NCBI RefSeq assembly: GCF_014636865.1
Contig: NZ_BMER01000003.1
Span: forward strand, 62,215-126,214
Length of the DNA stretch: 64,000 bases
Source of the DNA: Parapedobacter pyrenivorans
GTDB taxonomy: Bacteria > Bacteroidota > Bacteroidia > Sphingobacteriales > Sphingobacteriaceae
Direction of reading: 5' to 3'
Positions within the stretch are counted from its first letter, which is position 1. Every line of letters begins with the position of its first letter. The notes below the pieces were generated by a model. It made no database searches. It saw only the letters and a program-made list of their open reading frames with translations, and was not told the origin of the DNA. The translations under genes were made by a program, and so were the position numbers. Positions 7,552 through 45,627 of the stretch are shown one piece after another.

Positions 7552-9270
7552 CTAATAACCCAGGGCCACATCATCCCCGCGGGGATCAGCTCCTCCTTGC
7601 AAGCTACCATCAGCCAGTACCCGTATCGCGTCAACCCTGCCAATGGCGTTCCGATTGATCAATTTGTAGCCGGTTTTAGTTAGCGAATGACGAACAGACT
7701 GGCTAATGGCATCCTTTTCGACAGCTACCTCGTCTGGCAACCACTGGTGATGAAATCTTGGTGCCGAAACCGCCTCTTGCATATCCATCTCAAAATCCAC
7801 CACATTAAGGATGGTTTGGAATACCGAGGTCATAATGGTAGATCCGCCAGGCGTTCCCACTACCATAAACAATCCGCCGTCCTTTTCTAATATCGTCGGA
7901 GTCATCGAACTTAACATGCGCTTGCCAGGCTCGATGGCGTTTGCAGTACCGCCTATCAGACCATACATATTCGGAGCGCCGGGTTTGACCGAAAAATCAT
8001 CCATCTCGTTATTCAGTAGAAAGCCAGCACCCGCCACCACGACCTGCGAACCGTAAGAACCATTAATGGTTGTCGTGATGGCCACCGCATTTCCCTCTTC
8101 ATCGACAATGGAGAAATGCGTGGTTTCCTCGTGCTCGATTTTGGAAAGCTCACCTGCATAGATGTCACTACTGAAGGAAGCATGACTGAAATTCATATTA
8201 CGCATCCGATCCGCGTTGTATGCGGAATCAATGAGCATCGCTTGGGGCACCTCGTAGTAATCGGGATCGCCGAGGTGTGTAGCCCGATCGGCATATACCC
8301 GGCGTTCGGCCTCAATCATCACGCGCATAGTTGAATCCTGTTGGAAGCCCCAATCGGACAACGGATAAGCCTCTACCGATTTGAGCATCGATATCAATGC
8401 GATCCCACCGCTCGATGGCGGTGGCATGGATACAACCCGATGTCCGCGATAGCTCGCAACGACGGGCTCCCGCCACTTGGCCTCATAGTTTTTCAAATCG
8501 TCATACGTGATGATGCCATTGCCGCTGGCCATCTCTTCAACAATCCGATCGGCGATTTCACCGGCATAAAAACCCGCTCTGCCCTTTTCACTAATCAATA
8601 CCAAAGTATGGGCAAGTTCCAGCTGCACCAGGGTGTCTCCGGCTGCCCATTCGTCCGCCTTCACGAAGGCTGTCCCCTTGGGGTTATATTTTTCAAAACT
8701 TTCCTTTCTGCCGTTGAGTTCCTGCGCCTGCATGGCAGTGATGGCAAACCCATTGCGCGCCAAATGGATAGCGGGTTGTAACAGTATGGACCAATCCAGT
8801 TTCCCGTAACGCTGGTGTGCTTTCACCATGCCGTCAACGGCACCAGGTACCCCCGAGGCCAGCTGTCCACGCAAACTAAGGTCGACAATCGGATTGCCAT
8901 GCTCGTCCAAGTACATATCCCTCGTGGCCGCCGCGGGAGCGGCCTCCCGGAAGTCCAGGGAAGCGAAACCAGCGTCGGCATCGCGATAAACCATAAAGCC
9001 GCCGCCACCGATGTTGCCCGCATTGGGGTACACCACCGCTAGCGCAAATTGAACCGCCACGGCCGCATCCACCGCATTACCGCCATCTTTGAGTATCTGC
9101 AAACCCACGGCCGATGCCTCGGGGTGCGCAGTAACCACCATGCCACGATGATACGTTGACGAGCGTTTGTTCTCCCGAAACGCGCCGCATGAAGTGATGG
9201 CAATCGTCAAAAAGACGGCCAGCAACTGGTATAGCCGGACGCTTCTACCGATAGGTAAATACCTCTTCAT
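7552..9270 (-). CDS. ggt: Gamma-glutamyltransferase, lipoprotein
   Basis: A 572-residue Ntn-hydrolase that cleaves gamma-glutamyl bonds of glutathione and related compounds or transfers the gamma-glutamyl group. The precursor self-cleaves before the nucleophilic threonine, seen here in Glu-Thr-Thr-His-Phe-Ser near residue 384. The substrate loop (GSYGSQVVV...GFLLNNEMDDF) and the C-terminal GTPGGSTI oxyanion segment are present. The N-terminus has a signal peptide with lipobox ITSC (Cys about residue 28), so it should be a periplasm- or surface-facing lipoprotein that recovers amino acids from peptides. It begins 3 bases after gpsA in the same run. Confidence 0.95.
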   Translation of the reverse strand: MKRYLPIGRSVRLYQLLAVFLTIAITSCGAFRENKRSSTYHRGMVVTAHPEASAVGLQILKDGGNAVDAAVAVQFALAVVYPNAGNIGGGGFMVYRDADAGFASLDFREAAPAAATRDMYLDEHGNPIVDLSLRGQLASGVPGAVDGMVKAHQRYGKLDWSILLQPAIHLARNGFAITAMQAQELNGRKESFEKYNPKGTAFVKADEWAAGDTLVQLELAHTLVLISEKGRAGFYAGEIADRIVEEMASGNGIITYDDLKNYEAKWREPVVASYRGHRVVSMPPPSSGGIALISMLKSVEAYPLSDWGFQQDSTMRVMIEAERRVYADRATHLGDPDYYEVPQAMLIDSAYNADRMRNMNFSHASFSSDIYAGELSKIEHEETTHFSIVDEEGNAVAITTTINGSYGSQVVVAGAGFLLNNEMDDFSVKPGAPNMYGLIGGTANAIEPGKRMLSSMTPTILEKDGGLFMVVGTPGGSTIMTSVFQTILNVVDFEMDMQEAVSAPRFHHQWLPDEVAVEKDAISQSVRHSLTKTGYKLINRNAIGRVDAIRVLADGSLQGGADPRGDDVALGY

Positions 9271-30414: not shown

Positions 30415-31095
30415 ATGATAGGCGATACGGTAATCACACTCAAAAACGTCGATATCTACCAACCCAAGCATCTCGTACTTGCTAATGTTAACCTGAAAAT
30501 CGATAAGGGCGAATTTGTATTCCTAATCGGCCAAACCGGGAGTGGCAAGAGCAGCCTGTTGAAAATCATCTATGGTGAACTACACATTGCCAGTGGTGAA
30601 GGGATGGTTGCCGGCTTCGACTTAAAAAAACTCAGTGAACGAGAAGTACCTTTCCTGCGTAGAAAATTGGGCATCGTTTTCCAGGATTTCCACCTACTCA
30701 CGGACCGTACCGTAGAAAAGAACCTGGAATTTGCCCTTCGCGCCACGGGTTGGAAAGACAAAAACCTAATCACCAACCGGATGCTGGACGTGCTCGAAAA
30801 GGTAGGCCTCCGCTCTAAGCTCAAGAAAATGCCTCATGAACTATCCGGTGGTGAGCAGCAACGCGTGGTCATTGCCCGTGCTTTGCTCAATAATCCCGAA
30901 ATTATCCTGGCCGATGAACCTACCGGCAACCTGGACCCCGAGACCTCTGAAGAAATCGTTTTGTTATTGAAAGAAATCAGTCGATCCGGAACTGCAATCC
31001 TAATGGCCACGCATGATTACCAAATCATCCGTAATATGCCTTCACGTATCATCAAAACGGGAGATGGCGCATTGCAAGACAATGTGTCAATATAA
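30415..31095 (+). CDS. ftsE: FtsE-like cell-division ABC transporter ATPase
   Basis: A 226-residue ABC ATPase. Walker A GQTGSGKSS (near 38-46), Q-loop VFQDFHLL, signature LSGGEQQRV, Walker B IILADEPTGNLDP and the H-loop ATHDY are all intact. The pattern and length match FtsE, which with the membrane protein FtsX controls peptidoglycan hydrolases at the septum. LolD/MacB-type ATPases are similar, so this is a family-level call. No ftsX lies nearby, which is usual in Bacteroidota as far as I recall. It follows the 67-residue protein by 6 bases and precedes grpE after a 142-base spacer. Confidence 0.85.
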   Translation: MIGDTVITLKNVDIYQPKHLVLANVNLKIDKGEFVFLIGQTGSGKSSLLKIIYGELHIASGEGMVAGFDLKKLSEREVPFLRRKLGIVFQDFHLLTDRTVEKNLEFALRATGWKDKNLITNRMLDVLEKVGLRSKLKKMPHELSGGEQQRVVIARALLNNPEIILADEPTGNLDPETSEEIVLLLKEISRSGTAILMATHDYQIIRNMPSRIIKTGDGALQDNVSI

Positions 31096-31099
31096 GCCT

Positions 31100-31142
31100 G
31101 CTTACATGGCGAAAGCTAGCGCTAATGCGCCATTTTGTAAGC
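31100..31142 (+). other. Branched hairpin between ftsE and grpE
   Basis: GCTTACATGGCG pairs with CGCCA-TTT-TGTAAGC (12 pairs with a 3-base bulge), enclosing a small AGC/GCT helix. No T run follows, so this is at best a weak terminator or a processing/regulatory structure of the ftsE mRNA end. Confidence 0.4.
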
Positions 31143-31184
31143 ATGGCGCGCCGCGAAACTGACAGGGTGACGGAGTTTCATAGC

Positions 31185-31200
31185 TGGCAATGAAATTGCG
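31185..31200 (+). promoter_or_regulatory. Sigma-54-like promoter of grpE-dnaJ
   Basis: TGGCA (31185-31189), six bases, TTGCG (31196-31200): the -24/-12 spacing and GG/GC dinucleotides of the RpoN consensus. The start would fall near 31212, before the ATG codons at 31229 and 31238. No TAnnTTTG element is seen in this spacer. Confidence 0.5.
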
Positions 31201-31237
31201 TGACCGAACTACGGTTGACAACAACAGGATGACAGCT

Positions 31238-31822
31238 ATGGCAAAAGACAAGAACAAAAGAAATTACGATAACAACGACATAATGGGAGAAAAAGAAGCT
31301 GCTGCGCAGGAAATCCAGACGGCCGACGATGCCCAAATCGAAAAAGAAATTGATCCTGCGGCTGATGAGCCTACAGAAACACAACGATTGACTGCCGAAT
31401 TGGCTGCGGCCAATGACAAGTATATGCGCTTATATGCTGAGTTTGATAATTACAAGCGCCGGATTGCAAAGGAGCGCGTCGAACTCATGCAAACCGCCGG
31501 CAAGGAAATCATTGCCAACCTACTACCGGCAATCGATGATTTCGACCGGGCGTTAAAGGCCTTTGAAACCGCTACTGAACTCGCTCCGTTGCAAGAGGGC
31601 GTGTCTTTGGTTGGCCAAAAGCTGAAGACCATCCTTACCAACCAGGGATTGAAGGAGATGGAATCGATAGGAAAACCGTTCGATGCAGAGTTGCAGGAAG
31701 CGATCACCAACGTACCGGCTGCCAGTGATGACCTGAAAGGCAAGGTAATTGACGAAATCGAAAAGGGCTACTTTTTACATGGTAAGGTGTTGCGCCATGC
31801 CAAAGTCGTTGTAGGCAGTTAA
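31238..31822 (+). CDS. grpE: GrpE nucleotide exchange factor
   Basis: GrpE (194 residues from this start) releases ADP from DnaK and forms a dimer with a long N-terminal coiled coil. The charged N-terminus, the coiled-coil region ([31 protein letters not shown]) and the beta-domain motifs ([26 protein letters not shown], and [16 protein letters not shown] at the C-terminus) are clear. Three in-frame ATGs exist (31190, 31229, 31238). The first overlaps the sigma-54-like promoter, and AGGA lies 8-10 bases before 31238, so that start is used. dnaJ follows after 13 bases. dnaK is not in the window. Confidence 0.95.
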
Positions 31823-31835
31823 CAGACAAGCAAGC

Positions 31836-32984
31836 ATGGCAAAACGAGATTATTACGATGTATTAGGTATTTCCCGCAACGCCGATCAAGCCGAGATAAA
31901 GTCGGCTTATCGGAAATTGGCTATTAAGTACCACCCAGACAAAAATCCAGACAACAAAGAAGCCGAAGAGAAATTTAAGGAAGCTGCTGAAGCTTATGAA
32001 GTACTCAGCAACTCCGAAAAGCGGCAACGCTATGACCAATTTGGCCATGCCGGTGGTGCTTCAGGTGGTTTCGGTGGCGGTGGTATGAATATGGAAGATA
32101 TATTCAGCCAATTTGGAGACATCTTCGGCGGCGGCGGCAGTCCGTTTGAAAGCTTTTTCGGTGGTGGGGGCCAACGTGGTGGTCGTCGTGTCACCAAAGG
32201 ATCCAACTTACGTATCAAGGTAAAACTCACCCTGCACGAAATCGCTAAGGGTGCCGAAAAGAAAATCAAGGTAAACAAGCAAGTGGTATGTTCCACCTGC
32301 GACGGCAGCGGCGCCAAGGATAAATCTTCATTCCACACCTGTCGCACCTGCGGCGGCACGGGTGCTGTACGACGGGTTACCAATACCATTTTGGGCCAGA
32401 TGCAAACAACCAGCACTTGCCCTACCTGTAATGGCGAAGGCGTAGAAATATCCGCGAAATGTACGGCATGCCATGGCGACGGACTGGTGCGTGGTGAAGA
32501 AACAATCAGCATCAACATACCTGCCGGCGTAAGCGAGGGCATGCAGTTATCCATGAGTGGAAAAGGAAATGCCGCCCCGCGTGGCGGGGTACCCGGCGAC
32601 TTGATTATCCTTATTGAAGAGCTACCACATGAAAGCCTGAAAAGGGACGGAACAAATGTTATCTATGACCTGTATGTCAATTTTGTCGACGCGGCATTGG
32701 GTACTAGCGTAGAAATCCCCACCATAGACGGCAAAGCGAAAATCAAAATTGAATCGGGCACTCAAGGCGGAAAAATACTGCGACTAAAGGGAAAAGGCGT
32801 GCCTGAGGTCAACTCCTACCATAAAGGTGACCAGCTCGTGTATGTCAATGTATGGACGCCTAAAGCGGTATCGTCAGAAGAGAAAGATCTGCTCGAACGC
32901 CTGCGCAACTCTCCAAATTTCAAACCCCAGCCCGGCAGGAATGAAAAAACCTTTTTTGAACGAATAAAGGAATATTTCGAATAA
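31836..32984 (+). CDS. dnaJ: DnaJ chaperone
   Basis: A 382-residue type I J-protein, co-chaperone of DnaK. The J domain (1-70) has the His-Pro-Asp motif in [11 protein letters not shown] glycine/phenylalanine-rich region follows (about 72-120), then four zinc-binding repeats [24 protein letters not shown] and CTACHGDG (about 150-215), and the C-terminal substrate-binding domains. All eight cysteines are present. It is co-transcribed with grpE (13-base gap), and a perfect hairpin terminator ends the operon. Confidence 0.98.
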
Positions 32985-33264: not shown

Positions 33265-33280
33265 TGGCATTTGTATTGCA
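33265..33280 (+). promoter_or_regulatory. Sigma-54-like promoter of the outer-membrane barrel gene
   Basis: TGGCA (33265-33269), six bases, TTGCA (33276-33280), an exact match to the core RpoN consensus. The predicted start near 33291 lies inside the inverted repeat TGACTT-CAT-AAGTCA (33285-33299), giving a 5' leader of about 75 bases. The alternative TTTG at 33250 has no -7 element 19 bases later. Confidence 0.5.
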
Positions 33281-33364: not shown

Positions 33365-33949
33365 ATGAAAAAACTATTTTTAACTTTAACAGCAGCCGTA
33401 GCAGTAACATTCGCAGCTAATGCACAAACCGAAAAAGGAAAGACTATCCTTGGCGGAAATGTGTCGTACGATTACACCAATGTAAAAGATGTTGACGGAA
33501 GTGTTCAGGGTTTTTCTATCTTACCTAATGTCGGCGTATTTGTTAGCGACAATGTGGCGGTTGGATTGGGAATAGGCTACGCTTGGAATCAGGAAGATGA
33601 TGGCACTGAGAAAGCTAAGCTTGGGCAATTCGTGGCCGCTCCGTATGCCAGACTTTACAAAGGCGACGGCGACTTTAAGTTCTTCGGTCAAGTATCCGTT
33701 CCAATGGCTTGGGGCAACTCCAAAGTCGATGATACGAAAATTTCCAAATCAGAACATTACGGTGTTGAATTGGCACCAGGCTTTGCGTACTTCCCTACCG
33801 ACAAGATCGGCATTGAATTTTCCGTACGAGGCTTGTATTATCAAAATGCCAGCACTACGCCTGAAGGCGGTAGCAAAACCAGCACCAACTCATTTGGTTT
33901 GAACGCCAATTCATTGGCCCCGAAAATCGGTGTCCAGTTCTATTTCTAA
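33365..33949 (+). CDS. Outer-membrane beta-barrel protein
   Basis: A 194-residue protein with a cleavable signal peptide (MKKLFLTLTAAVAVTFAANAQ) followed by alternating hydrophobic/polar strands and a C-terminus ending in Phe-Tyr-Phe (GVQFYF), the outer-membrane insertion signature. It fits the small eight-stranded barrel (porin family, PorT/OmpW-like) group common in Bacteroidota. Function unknown; these are often abundant surface proteins induced by stress. It is monocistronic: a long regulatory spacer precedes it, with a sigma-54-like promoter and two inverted repeats, and a strong bidirectional terminator follows. Confidence 0.85.
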   Translation: MKKLFLTLTAAVAVTFAANAQTEKGKTILGGNVSYDYTNVKDVDGSVQGFSILPNVGVFVSDNVAVGLGIGYAWNQEDDGTEKAKLGQFVAAPYARLYKGDGDFKFFGQVSVPMAWGNSKVDDTKISKSEHYGVELAPGFAYFPTDKIGIEFSVRGLYYQNASTTPEGGSKTSTNSFGLNANSLAPKIGVQFYF

Positions 33950-43067: not shown

Positions 43068-43083
43068 TGGCATAGGCATTGCA
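43068..43083 (+). promoter_or_regulatory. Sigma-54-like promoter of lon
   Basis: TGGCA (43068-43072), six bases, TTGCA (43079-43083): exact core RpoN pattern, 85 bases before the lon ATG. No TAnnTTTG element is found close by. Confidence 0.5.
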
Positions 43084-43167: not shown

Positions 43168-45627
43168 ATGAGCAATTTTGATCCATTTGATTTTAACCAG
43201 GCAATCCCTATCATAAATGAAGATACTGAATTCTTCCCCTTGTTGAGCCAACAAGATGAAGATGAGATGAGCAATGCCGATCTTCCCGAATCACTTTCTA
43301 TTCTCCCCCTACGAAACACCGTGTTATTCCCCGGCGTGGTCATTCCGATCACAGTAGGCAGGGACAAATCCATTAAATTGGTAAAGGAGGCATACAAAGG
43401 CGACCGCATTATCGGTGTGGTGGCGCAAGAGAACATGACGATCGAGGACCCGACGTTTGAGCAACTCTATCAGGTGGGCACCGTAGCCATGATTATCAAA
43501 ATACTGCAGATGCCCGATGGCAATACGACTGTTATTATACAGGGCAAACAGCGTTTCAGATTACGTGGCCTTATTCAAAACGAGCCCTACATCAAAGCGC
43601 AGATTGAACGCTTCGAAGAGAAAAAACACAAAGCGAATCGGGAGTTCAATGCGTTGATTTCTTCCATCAAAGAGATGGCCTTGCAGATCATTCAGCTTTC
43701 CCCGCACATACCCAGCGAGGCAGGCATTGCTATCAAAAATATTGAGAGCCCGGCTTTTCTCATCAATTTCATTTCTTCCAACCTCAATGCCGATCTCGAA
43801 TTCAAGCAGCAATTGCTGGAAATCGCTGATTTAGACAAACGAGCATCCAAAGTACTCGAACAACTCAATGTAGAACTTCAACTATTGGAGCTCAAGAACC
43901 AAATACAGAATAAGGTAAGGGGTGATCTTGACAAACAGCAACGGGATTATTTCCTTAACCAGCAATTGAAGACCATCCAGGAAGAATTGGGCGGCAACAC
44001 GCCCGACCTGGAAATGGAAGATCTGCGCAAACGTGCTCGGACAAAAAAATGGTCTAAAGAGGTCAATGAGCATTTCGGCAAAGAACTTGACAAACTGGCC
44101 CGCATCAATCCTGCCGCGGCCGATTATTCGGTACAACTCAATTACCTGGAATTGATACTGGAGTTGCCGTGGAATTATTTCACGAAAGACAATTTCGACC
44201 TTGTTCGTGCCAAGCGTGTTTTAGATCGGGATCATTATGGGTTGGAAAAAGTAAAGCAGCGTATCATCGAATACTTGGCAGTATTGAAGCTAAAACATAA
44301 CATGAAGGCCCCCATCTTATGCCTGGTTGGCCCACCGGGGGTGGGAAAAACATCACTGGGCAAATCCATCGCGAAAGCACTCGGGCGAAAATATGCACGT
44401 ATGGCGCTGGGCGGGATCCGCGATGAAGCTGAAATCAGGGGCCACCGCAAAACCTATATCGGTGCAATGCCGGGACGTATCATCCAATCATTGAAGAAAG
44501 CCGGCACGTCAAATCCGGTGTTCGTACTCGATGAAATCGATAAGGTAGGGAGTGACTTCCGGGGAGATCCCTCTTCTGCGTTACTTGAAGTGCTCGATCC
44601 TGAGCAAAACAGCGCGTTTTATGACCACTATGTGGAGCTGGATTATGACTTATCCAATGTGATGTTCATTGCCACAGCTAATTCGTTGAGCAATATACAG
44701 CCCGCGCTGCTAGACCGCATGGAGATCATCGAAGTTAACGGCTACACCATTGAGGAAAAAATTGAGATCGCGAAGAAACACCTCATTCCGAAACAGCGGG
44801 AGTCACACGGGCTCCAGGCAAAAGATTTTTCCGTTCGATCCAAAGTCATCGAGAAAATCATCGACGAATACACACGCGAATCGGGCGTACGCGGTTTGGA
44901 AAAGAAAATCGGTTCTATTGTTCGCGGAGTGGCTACCCACCTGGTGATGGAAGACCCGCTTCAGAAACCAATCGATGCCACAATCGTAGAAAAAATCCTC
45001 GGTGCGCCGATATTCGACAAAGAATATTATGAAAACAACGAAGTAGCCGGCGTCGTTACCGGACTCGCGTGGACACAGGTTGGTGGTGATATCCTCTTTA
45101 TCGAATCGAGTCTGAGCCCCGGAAAGGGCAAATTGACATTAACGGGCAATTTGGGCGAGGTGATGAAAGAATCGGCAAGCATCGCTATGGCCTATCTCCG
45201 TGCAAATGCCAGCGAATTCGACATTGATTACCGCGTCTTCGACAAATGGGACGTCCACGTCCATGTGCCAGCAGGCGCCACGCCTAAAGACGGTCCTTCA
45301 GCTGGCATCACCATGCTTACCGCATTGGCATCGAGTTTTACGCAACGTAAAGTAAAGGAAAAGCTGGCCATGACAGGCGAAATCACGCTGCGTGGCAGGG
45401 TGCTGCCAGTAGGTGGCATCAAAGAGAAAATTTTAGCTGCCAAACGGGCCAATATCAAAGAGGTAATTCTTTCTAAAGCAAATCGAAAAGATATTCTGGA
45501 AATCAAGGAGGATTATATCCGTGACCTCACATTCCACTATGTTTCCGAAATGCACGAAGTTGTCAATATCGCTTTGCTGAAGCAGCAGGTCAAAAAGCCT
45601 AAACAACTGCTACAGGATGAAGTATAA
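43168..45627 (+). CDS. lon: Lon ATP-dependent protease
   Basis: Lon (819 residues) degrades misfolded and regulatory proteins in the cytoplasm. The N-terminal substrate-binding LAN domain (about 40-240, [20 protein letters not shown]) is followed by a coiled-coil region, an AAA+ domain with Walker [10 protein letters not shown] (near 387) and Walker [12 protein letters not shown], and a Ser-Lys protease domain with the catalytic serine in KDGPSAGIT (near 710) and lysine about 43 residues later ([10 protein letters not shown]). The first 40 residues are an acidic extension. No TAnnTTTG promoter is seen; a sigma-54-like element lies 85 bases upstream. Confidence 0.98.

Follow-up and report, generated by a model that had tools for sequence, protein, structure and literature searches.

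A conserved sigma-54-type promoter element in front of grpE-dnaJ of Parapedobacter pyrenivorans and a candidate activator for it

The grpE-dnaJ locus

The genes grpE and dnaJ of Parapedobacter pyrenivorans lie one after the other in the window, which is the whole stretch of 64,000 nucleotides that was analyzed and is part of contig 3 of a 5.93 Mb genome in 11 contigs. The ftsE gene is co-directional with grpE and ends 142 nt before it. A sequence-only reading had placed a sigma-54-type promoter, TGGCA-N6-TTGC, between these two genes, and its sequence, orientation and spacing were confirmed: TGGCAATGAAATTGC, at positions 31185-31199 of the plus strand, is an exact match and is located 53 nt 5' of the conserved ATG of grpE at 31238. 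The features referred to in the text are the following.

31128-31140, plus strand: second and weaker half-palindrome, CGCCA-TTT-TGTAA, lying 32 nt or about three helical turns before the proximal one
31160-31171, plus strand: proximal half-palindrome TGACA-GGG-TGAC, separated by 13 nt from the -24 box that follows, a proposed activator site; present in 79 of 80 grpE loci and, together with TGGCA, in 14 of 20 further ones
31166-31205, no strand: imperfect inverted repeat with 19-nt arms, 79% complementary, centered on the -24 box (repeat scan)
31185-31199, plus strand: -24/-12 element TGGCA-N6-TTGC, the putative grpE-dnaJ promoter; exact match, conserved in orthologous loci, top composite score in the window
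31211, plus strand: predicted transcription start, 12 nt past the C at 31199
31238-31822, plus strand: grpE (Pfam GrpE, 3e-40; start kept in nine aligned sequences)
31836-32984, plus strand: dnaJ, the second gene, 13 nt after grpE (Pfam DnaJ domains; TIGR02349 above cut-off)
33265-33279, plus strand: -24/-12 match TTTGGCA-N6-TTGC before a beta-barrel gene (33365-33949); TGGCA-N6-TTG in 8 of 8 Parapedobacter
43068-43082, plus strand: -24/-12 match TTGGCA-N6-TTGCA before lon (43168-45627; Pfam Lon domains); the lon promoter given for F. psychrophilum in the promoter data of PMC9723704 is alike

The GG at -24 and the G at -12 stand at the fixed distance (TGGCA-N6-TTG) that defines a sigma-54 promoter. 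Transcription from such promoters usually starts about 12 nt after the -12 element, and the predicted start at 31211 is derived from this geometry. Another ATG, at 31190, is part of the promoter element itself and precedes the expected transcription start, while the ATG at 31238 aligns in the window and eight Parapedobacter sequences; the earlier rejection of 31190 as the start of grpE is thus upheld. In an alignment of nine spacers, the main conserved blocks are the palindrome, the -24/-12 columns and the ATG at 31238.

Two inverted repeats are found in the spacer. Judged by eye, the 40-bp repeat at 31166-31205 is similar in some Parapedobacter and near perfect around TGGCA in P. soli. It could be a repressor site at the level of the genus. 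The other, TGCTTACA / TGTAAGCA, occupies positions 31099-31143 directly 3' of ftsE, and the weaker of the two half-palindromes overlaps its right arm.

Exact matches to TGGCA-N6-TTGC occur four times in the window, all on the plus strand, compared to a mean of 0.92 in 100 dinucleotide shuffles. Two of the 100 shuffles also reach four matches, so the pattern alone is just modestly above chance. A clear excess is absent from the window when up to two mismatches to TGGCAC-N5-TTGCW are allowed (41 found, 37 expected). In the whole genome the pattern is found 106 times and its reversed form 54 times. The three matches that had been reported in front of three plus-strand genes were recovered before grpE (31238), the outer-membrane beta-barrel gene (33365) and lon (43168); the fourth, at 8742, is within a minus-strand open frame. 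The modest excess, four against 0.92, is what speaks for a chance occurrence of the nine-base match at grpE. The probability of this is negligible, and conservation of the site across genera and families speaks against it.

Conservation in orthologous loci

Comparison of orthologous grpE spacers, which the sequence-only reading had proposed as a check, was carried out on the best 80 of 214 relatives found. They are mostly Sphingobacteriaceae by their titles, and the closest to the window by GrpE, among these 80, are Parapedobacter species. A half-palindrome TGNCA-N3-TGNC followed by the -24 box is present in 79 of the 80 loci, a count in which these columns are conserved by construction because both the half-palindrome and TGGC were required. 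The gap between the two is 13 nt in 67 loci and 14 nt in 12. The remaining locus, L060, starts 192 nt before a GrpE match that itself begins at residue 41, and its spacer is largely missing. The 79 loci are related by kinship and non-independent, comprising 49 distinct promoter strings; TGGCA-N6-TTG is exact in 76 of them and one base shorter in the other three. The letter after TTG in the 76 exact sites is A in 50, T in 14, C in 9 and G in 3. Thus, of the TTGC originally described, TTG is kept in the orthologs, whereas the final C, and with it the GC at -12 seen in the window, recurs in just 9 of 76 sites.

The element extends beyond the family. Among 58 genomes with a GrpE match, 30 were taken as loci, and 20 upstream stretches were obtained from the other 28; 19 of these represent other families of the class, and the last one is from the same family. 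The palindrome and TGGCA occur together in 14 of these 20, mostly more distant, grpE loci and are absent as a pair from six, two of which (L165 and L183) have TGGCA-N6-TTG without the palindrome. The full composite was also found in 19 of 21 additional grpE loci of the same family.

A matrix was trained on 13 of the 14 composite-bearing loci, all from other families; L174 was excluded as a member of the same family. The training loci were picked for holding the composite, which six of the 20 fetched did not. With this matrix the grpE site is first in the window at 23.0 bits, and the next score in the 64 kb is 10.3. The maximum in 60 first-order Markov windows is 19.1, with a mean of 10.4. In 79 of the 80 loci the best match of the whole locus falls within 320 nt before the grpE match.

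It may be asked whether a sigma-70 promoter, or else read-through from ftsE, accounts for most of the transcription of grpE-dnaJ, TGGCA-N6-TTG being some other regulatory site. Read-through is favored by the direction and proximity of ftsE, and a scan of 30900-31400 found no terminator between ftsE and grpE. On the other hand, the exact -24/-12 spacing is kept in the orthologs, and a start mapped at grpE-dnaJ in Flavobacterium psychrophilum, as given in the promoter section of PMC9723704, has a motif of the same class. A TAnnTTTG box, the hallmark of sigma-70 promoters in Bacteroidetes, is missing upstream of grpE in the window, as had been claimed: neither TAnnTTTG nor TAnnTTGY is present at 31160-31237, and TAnnTTTG is found within 160 nt of the palindrome in just 5 of 79 loci. 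A sigma-70 promoter for grpE was rejected on this spacer without a box, and transcription mainly by either route is quite improbable.

The site is, very likely, a sigma-54 promoter of grpE-dnaJ, a conclusion that draws on the sequences together with starts mapped in another genus. Conservation of the element and its spacing in orthologous loci supports the original reading. The accompanying remark that heat-shock co-chaperones are not normally known as RpoN targets in this phylum is not supported: in F. psychrophilum, -24/-12 elements were reported at the mapped starts of groES-groEL, lon, dnaK, grpE-dnaJ and htpG, which form one co-expression cluster, and also before clpB and other genes (Guerin et al. 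2021, PMC9723704, promoter section). Since these starts were published in 2021, RpoN control of grpE-dnaJ is not new for the phylum.

The half-palindrome and its geometry

The conserved half-palindrome just upstream of the promoter, missing from the earlier description, is the most informative part of the locus. At grpE it nearly always lacks its last A; the full form is present in one of the 80 and two of the 20 grpE loci. A weaker copy 32 nt further up is found in part of the grpE loci, the window included, where it has a matrix score of 2.5 compared to 10.8 for the first. Over the 79 loci the offset of -32 has the top mean matrix score, -11.8 (the mean over offsets is -27.9, with a standard deviation of 4.95). 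The best single offset, however, varies between loci, being -59 in 20, -32 in 18 and -44 in 15. Paired-site offsets elsewhere have their best mean at +52 for groES; +52 at dnaK and +16 at miaB stand out little.

The palindrome is found in two geometries. The gap between it and the promoter is 47-95 nt at dnaK and groES, as is expected for an enhancer, 13-14 nt at grpE and 13 nt at the trxA gene of this genome. A palindrome at about -45, as predicted for grpE, is unusually close for an enhancer-binding protein. The palindrome alone is nonspecific, with four full copies in 152 kb of sequence from this genome where 2.3 are expected.

RpoN and the proposed regulon

The genome has one full rpoN gene, with all three Pfam sigma-54 domains, which supports the sigma-54 reading. 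RpoN and all the listed activator-domain matches lie elsewhere in the genome, and the earlier statement that they are outside the window is correct. An rpoN match is present in 58 of 60 genomes; one of the two genomes without a match is 76% complete.

Both parts of the composite recur at other chaperone operons. Upstream of dnaK (28 of 30 loci, after exclusion of one partial and one second-copy locus) TGGCA-N6-[ACT]TG was found in 26 of 28 loci, the full palindrome TGNCA-N3-TGNCA in 15, and the palindrome, a gap of 47-76 nt and the -24/-12 element in 15. Upstream of groES (28 of 30 loci, two weak Cpn10 loci being excluded; the start of L198 is misplaced and its count unreliable) the corresponding numbers are 18 of 28 for the element, 20 for the palindrome and 19 for the palindrome, a gap of 64-95 nt and the element, if any letter before TG is allowed. 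In the genus, the -12 box of groES reads ATG instead of TTG. Twenty-three permuted palindromes gave means of 0.09 loci at dnaK and 0.13 at groES; in one set, a single one of these 23 controls was present in 11 of 20.

In this genome the composite also precedes the thioredoxin gene trxA, and rpoN is next downstream (L164, 5108-5146). Five of nine genus genomes have a verified composite followed by trxA, and two more have a similar sequence about 3 kb before the rpoN domain. The composite pattern occurs in 50 places in the nine genomes; among the 34 examined as loci, 12 have a proper -12 box, and 11 of those 12 are grpE or trxA. Feed-forward on RpoN from the composite before trxA-rpoN is possible. 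By eye, a TATCTTTG box is seen just downstream of the trxA composite, so a sigma-70 promoter may coexist there.

The lon promoter has no strict palindrome upstream. The small outer-membrane beta-barrel gene at 33365-33949 is a likely further target of RpoN. Three other genes were considered and are not counted as members. A loose palindrome lies within 250 nt of hsp20 in 5 of 30 loci, the -24/-12 element there is inconsistent, and hsp20 of this genome has neither. Its clpB lacks both elements upstream, and its clpC has a degenerate match only.

One distant genome of the class, G037, has none of the elements at grpE, in front of groES, immediately upstream of dnaK or at its activator gene, which is diverged and unlinked. 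It is no case of loss: the palindrome and TTGGCA-N6-TTG are found there (L361) upstream of hsp20, the gene immediately before dnaK, and the regulon promoter sits in front of hsp20.

The element, its spacing, its conservation, RpoN and related palindromes at these operons (lon excepted) are present in the sequences themselves. With high confidence, the site in the window can be regarded as a sigma-54 promoter core that drives transcription of grpE-dnaJ, with a start at about position 31211, and belongs to a conserved, class-wide sigma-54 chaperone regulon. The proposed regulon, which forms part of the same claim, would comprise grpE-dnaJ, dnaK, groES-groEL, probably lon, and trxA beside rpoN.

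A candidate activator encoded next to groESL

The gene order on contig 1 is miaB, an activator gene, lptE, a gene with a weak TPR match, secG, groES and groEL. The miaB product has UPF0004, radical SAM and TRAM domains. In the activator protein the AAA+ (Sigma54_activat) domain runs from residue 12, a GSFTGA loop is present, and a Fis-type HTH_8 domain covers residues 376-412. This combination, a Sigma54_activat domain with a GAFTGA-like loop and HTH_8 and without Response_reg, is that of a receiver-less enhancer-binding protein. It is one of five strong activator proteins (above 200 bits) in the genome, and each of the other four has a receiver domain.

The receiver-less activator has a match with E below 1e-60 in 60 of 60 genomes, its own included, at 51-92% identity in the others; except in G015 and G041, nearly the whole protein is matched. 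Its gene lies within about 5 kb of groES on the same contig in 23 of 29 genomes, as assessed by eye. In an alignment of the 28 of 30 loci that had a usable reading frame, G[AS]FTGA is present in all 28, the sequences having been picked for containing FTGA. The helix-turn-helix has a mean identity of 90% to the copy in this genome, and the linker 58% with one conserved stretch. In the protein itself (L160, 6748-7995, minus strand) residues ~276-300 of the linker, between the AAA+ lid and the helix-turn-helix, are strongly conserved; judging from sequence, they are a candidate sensor or partner site.

A full palindrome was found upstream of the activator gene in 18 of 18, 18 of 20 and 11 of 20 stretches in three sets; in part of the later stretches only, miaB was recognized, by a short motif. 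In the first set a TAnnTTTG box follows 28-34 nt after the start of the palindrome in 17 of 18, which suggests control of a sigma-70 promoter of the miaB-activator operon.

These observations can be combined into a mechanism. The receiver-less enhancer-binding protein encoded between miaB and groESL would bind the palindrome TGNCA-N3-TGNCA. Its site would adjoin the promoter directly at grpE and trxA, would be some 50-95 nt away on the upstream side at dnaK and groES, and, in the activator's own operon, would serve to control a sigma-70-type box. What the linker senses, to speculate, may be unfolded protein or else free chaperone. That this miaB-groESL-linked protein activates the chaperone regulon is suggested by the sequence data with about an even chance of being right.

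The promoter might also depend on sigma-54 while the half-palindrome at grpE is bound by a different protein, either an activator with a receiver domain or a factor that is not an activator. Room for another binder is given by the grpE copy of the palindrome, which abuts the promoter and lacks its last A. The four activators with receiver domains are available in the genome, and the response regulator RprY of Porphyromonas gingivalis was reported, in the relevant section of PMC3646045, to bind the groES, dnaK and clpB promoters. Against this stand the presence of the receiver-less activator in 60 of 60 genomes (it was the one activator of the five used as a query), the vicinity of groESL in most, and the palindrome in front of the activator's own operon. 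A different binder is, on balance, a real but lesser possibility, to be put at roughly one chance in three.

Comparison with known systems

The proposed regulon has the same kind of target genes as RpoH or HrcA/CIRCE heat-shock control. The chaperone response of Bacteroidia might be run by one dedicated receiver-less activator that has near and far sites and controls its own sigma-70 promoter; there is as much reason to accept this as to doubt it. The same reading, at the same strength, would include feed-forward on trxA and perhaps rpoN, and would make the activator the phylum's counterpart of RpoH or HrcA. If true, this would explain chaperone control in a large group of bacteria from the gut and the environment, and would be evidence that the conserved site of an enhancer-binding protein can lie right next to a sigma-54 promoter.

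PspF of enterobacteria is an activator without a receiver domain that consists of an AAA+ domain and a C-terminal helix-turn-helix and controls its own sigma-70 promoter. The candidate activator is like PspF in lacking a receiver domain, in combining AAA+ with a C-terminal helix-turn-helix and, as proposed above, in controlling a sigma-70 promoter of its own. It differs in its linker of about 100 residues, in its neighbors (miaB, lptE and groESL) and in its score of 265.7 bits against TIGR02974 (NCBIfam), which is below the PspF cut-off of 443.55.

The present analysis makes RpoN control of grpE-dnaJ, an observation from Flavobacterium, probable for Sphingobacteriaceae as well and, given the conservation, for further families of the class. 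Furthermore, it offers a testable candidate activator and operator for a regulon whose activators the 2021 section left open, noting three activator-domain proteins (PMC9723704). A search of the open-access literature, covering the best-matching papers, found none that assigns the activator or describes the palindrome.

Among the closest known systems are the SM4 (sigma-54) promoters of F. psychrophilum, which in the promoter section of PMC9723704 have -24/-12 elements at grpE-dnaJ, dnaK, groES-groEL and lon. In that species THC0290_0733, which probably encodes a sigma-54 regulator, adjoins lptE and, by its locus tag, is near groESL; it is listed, however, with an SM5 and not a sigma-54 promoter, and the same section mentions no palindrome (PMC9723704). 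The sigma-54 regulons of Carrera-Reyna et al. (2025, PMC12316311) have the same chaperone targets, GroEL, GroES, GrpE, DnaJ, DnaK and IbpA being enriched among the predicted sigma-54 targets in Bacteroidota according to the passages on these regulons. For grpE being sigma-54-dependent in B. thetaiotaomicron and F. psychrophilum, that paper cites its reference 80, which deals with Blattabacterium and looks misnumbered. Those regulons differ from the one proposed here in being a statistical prediction.
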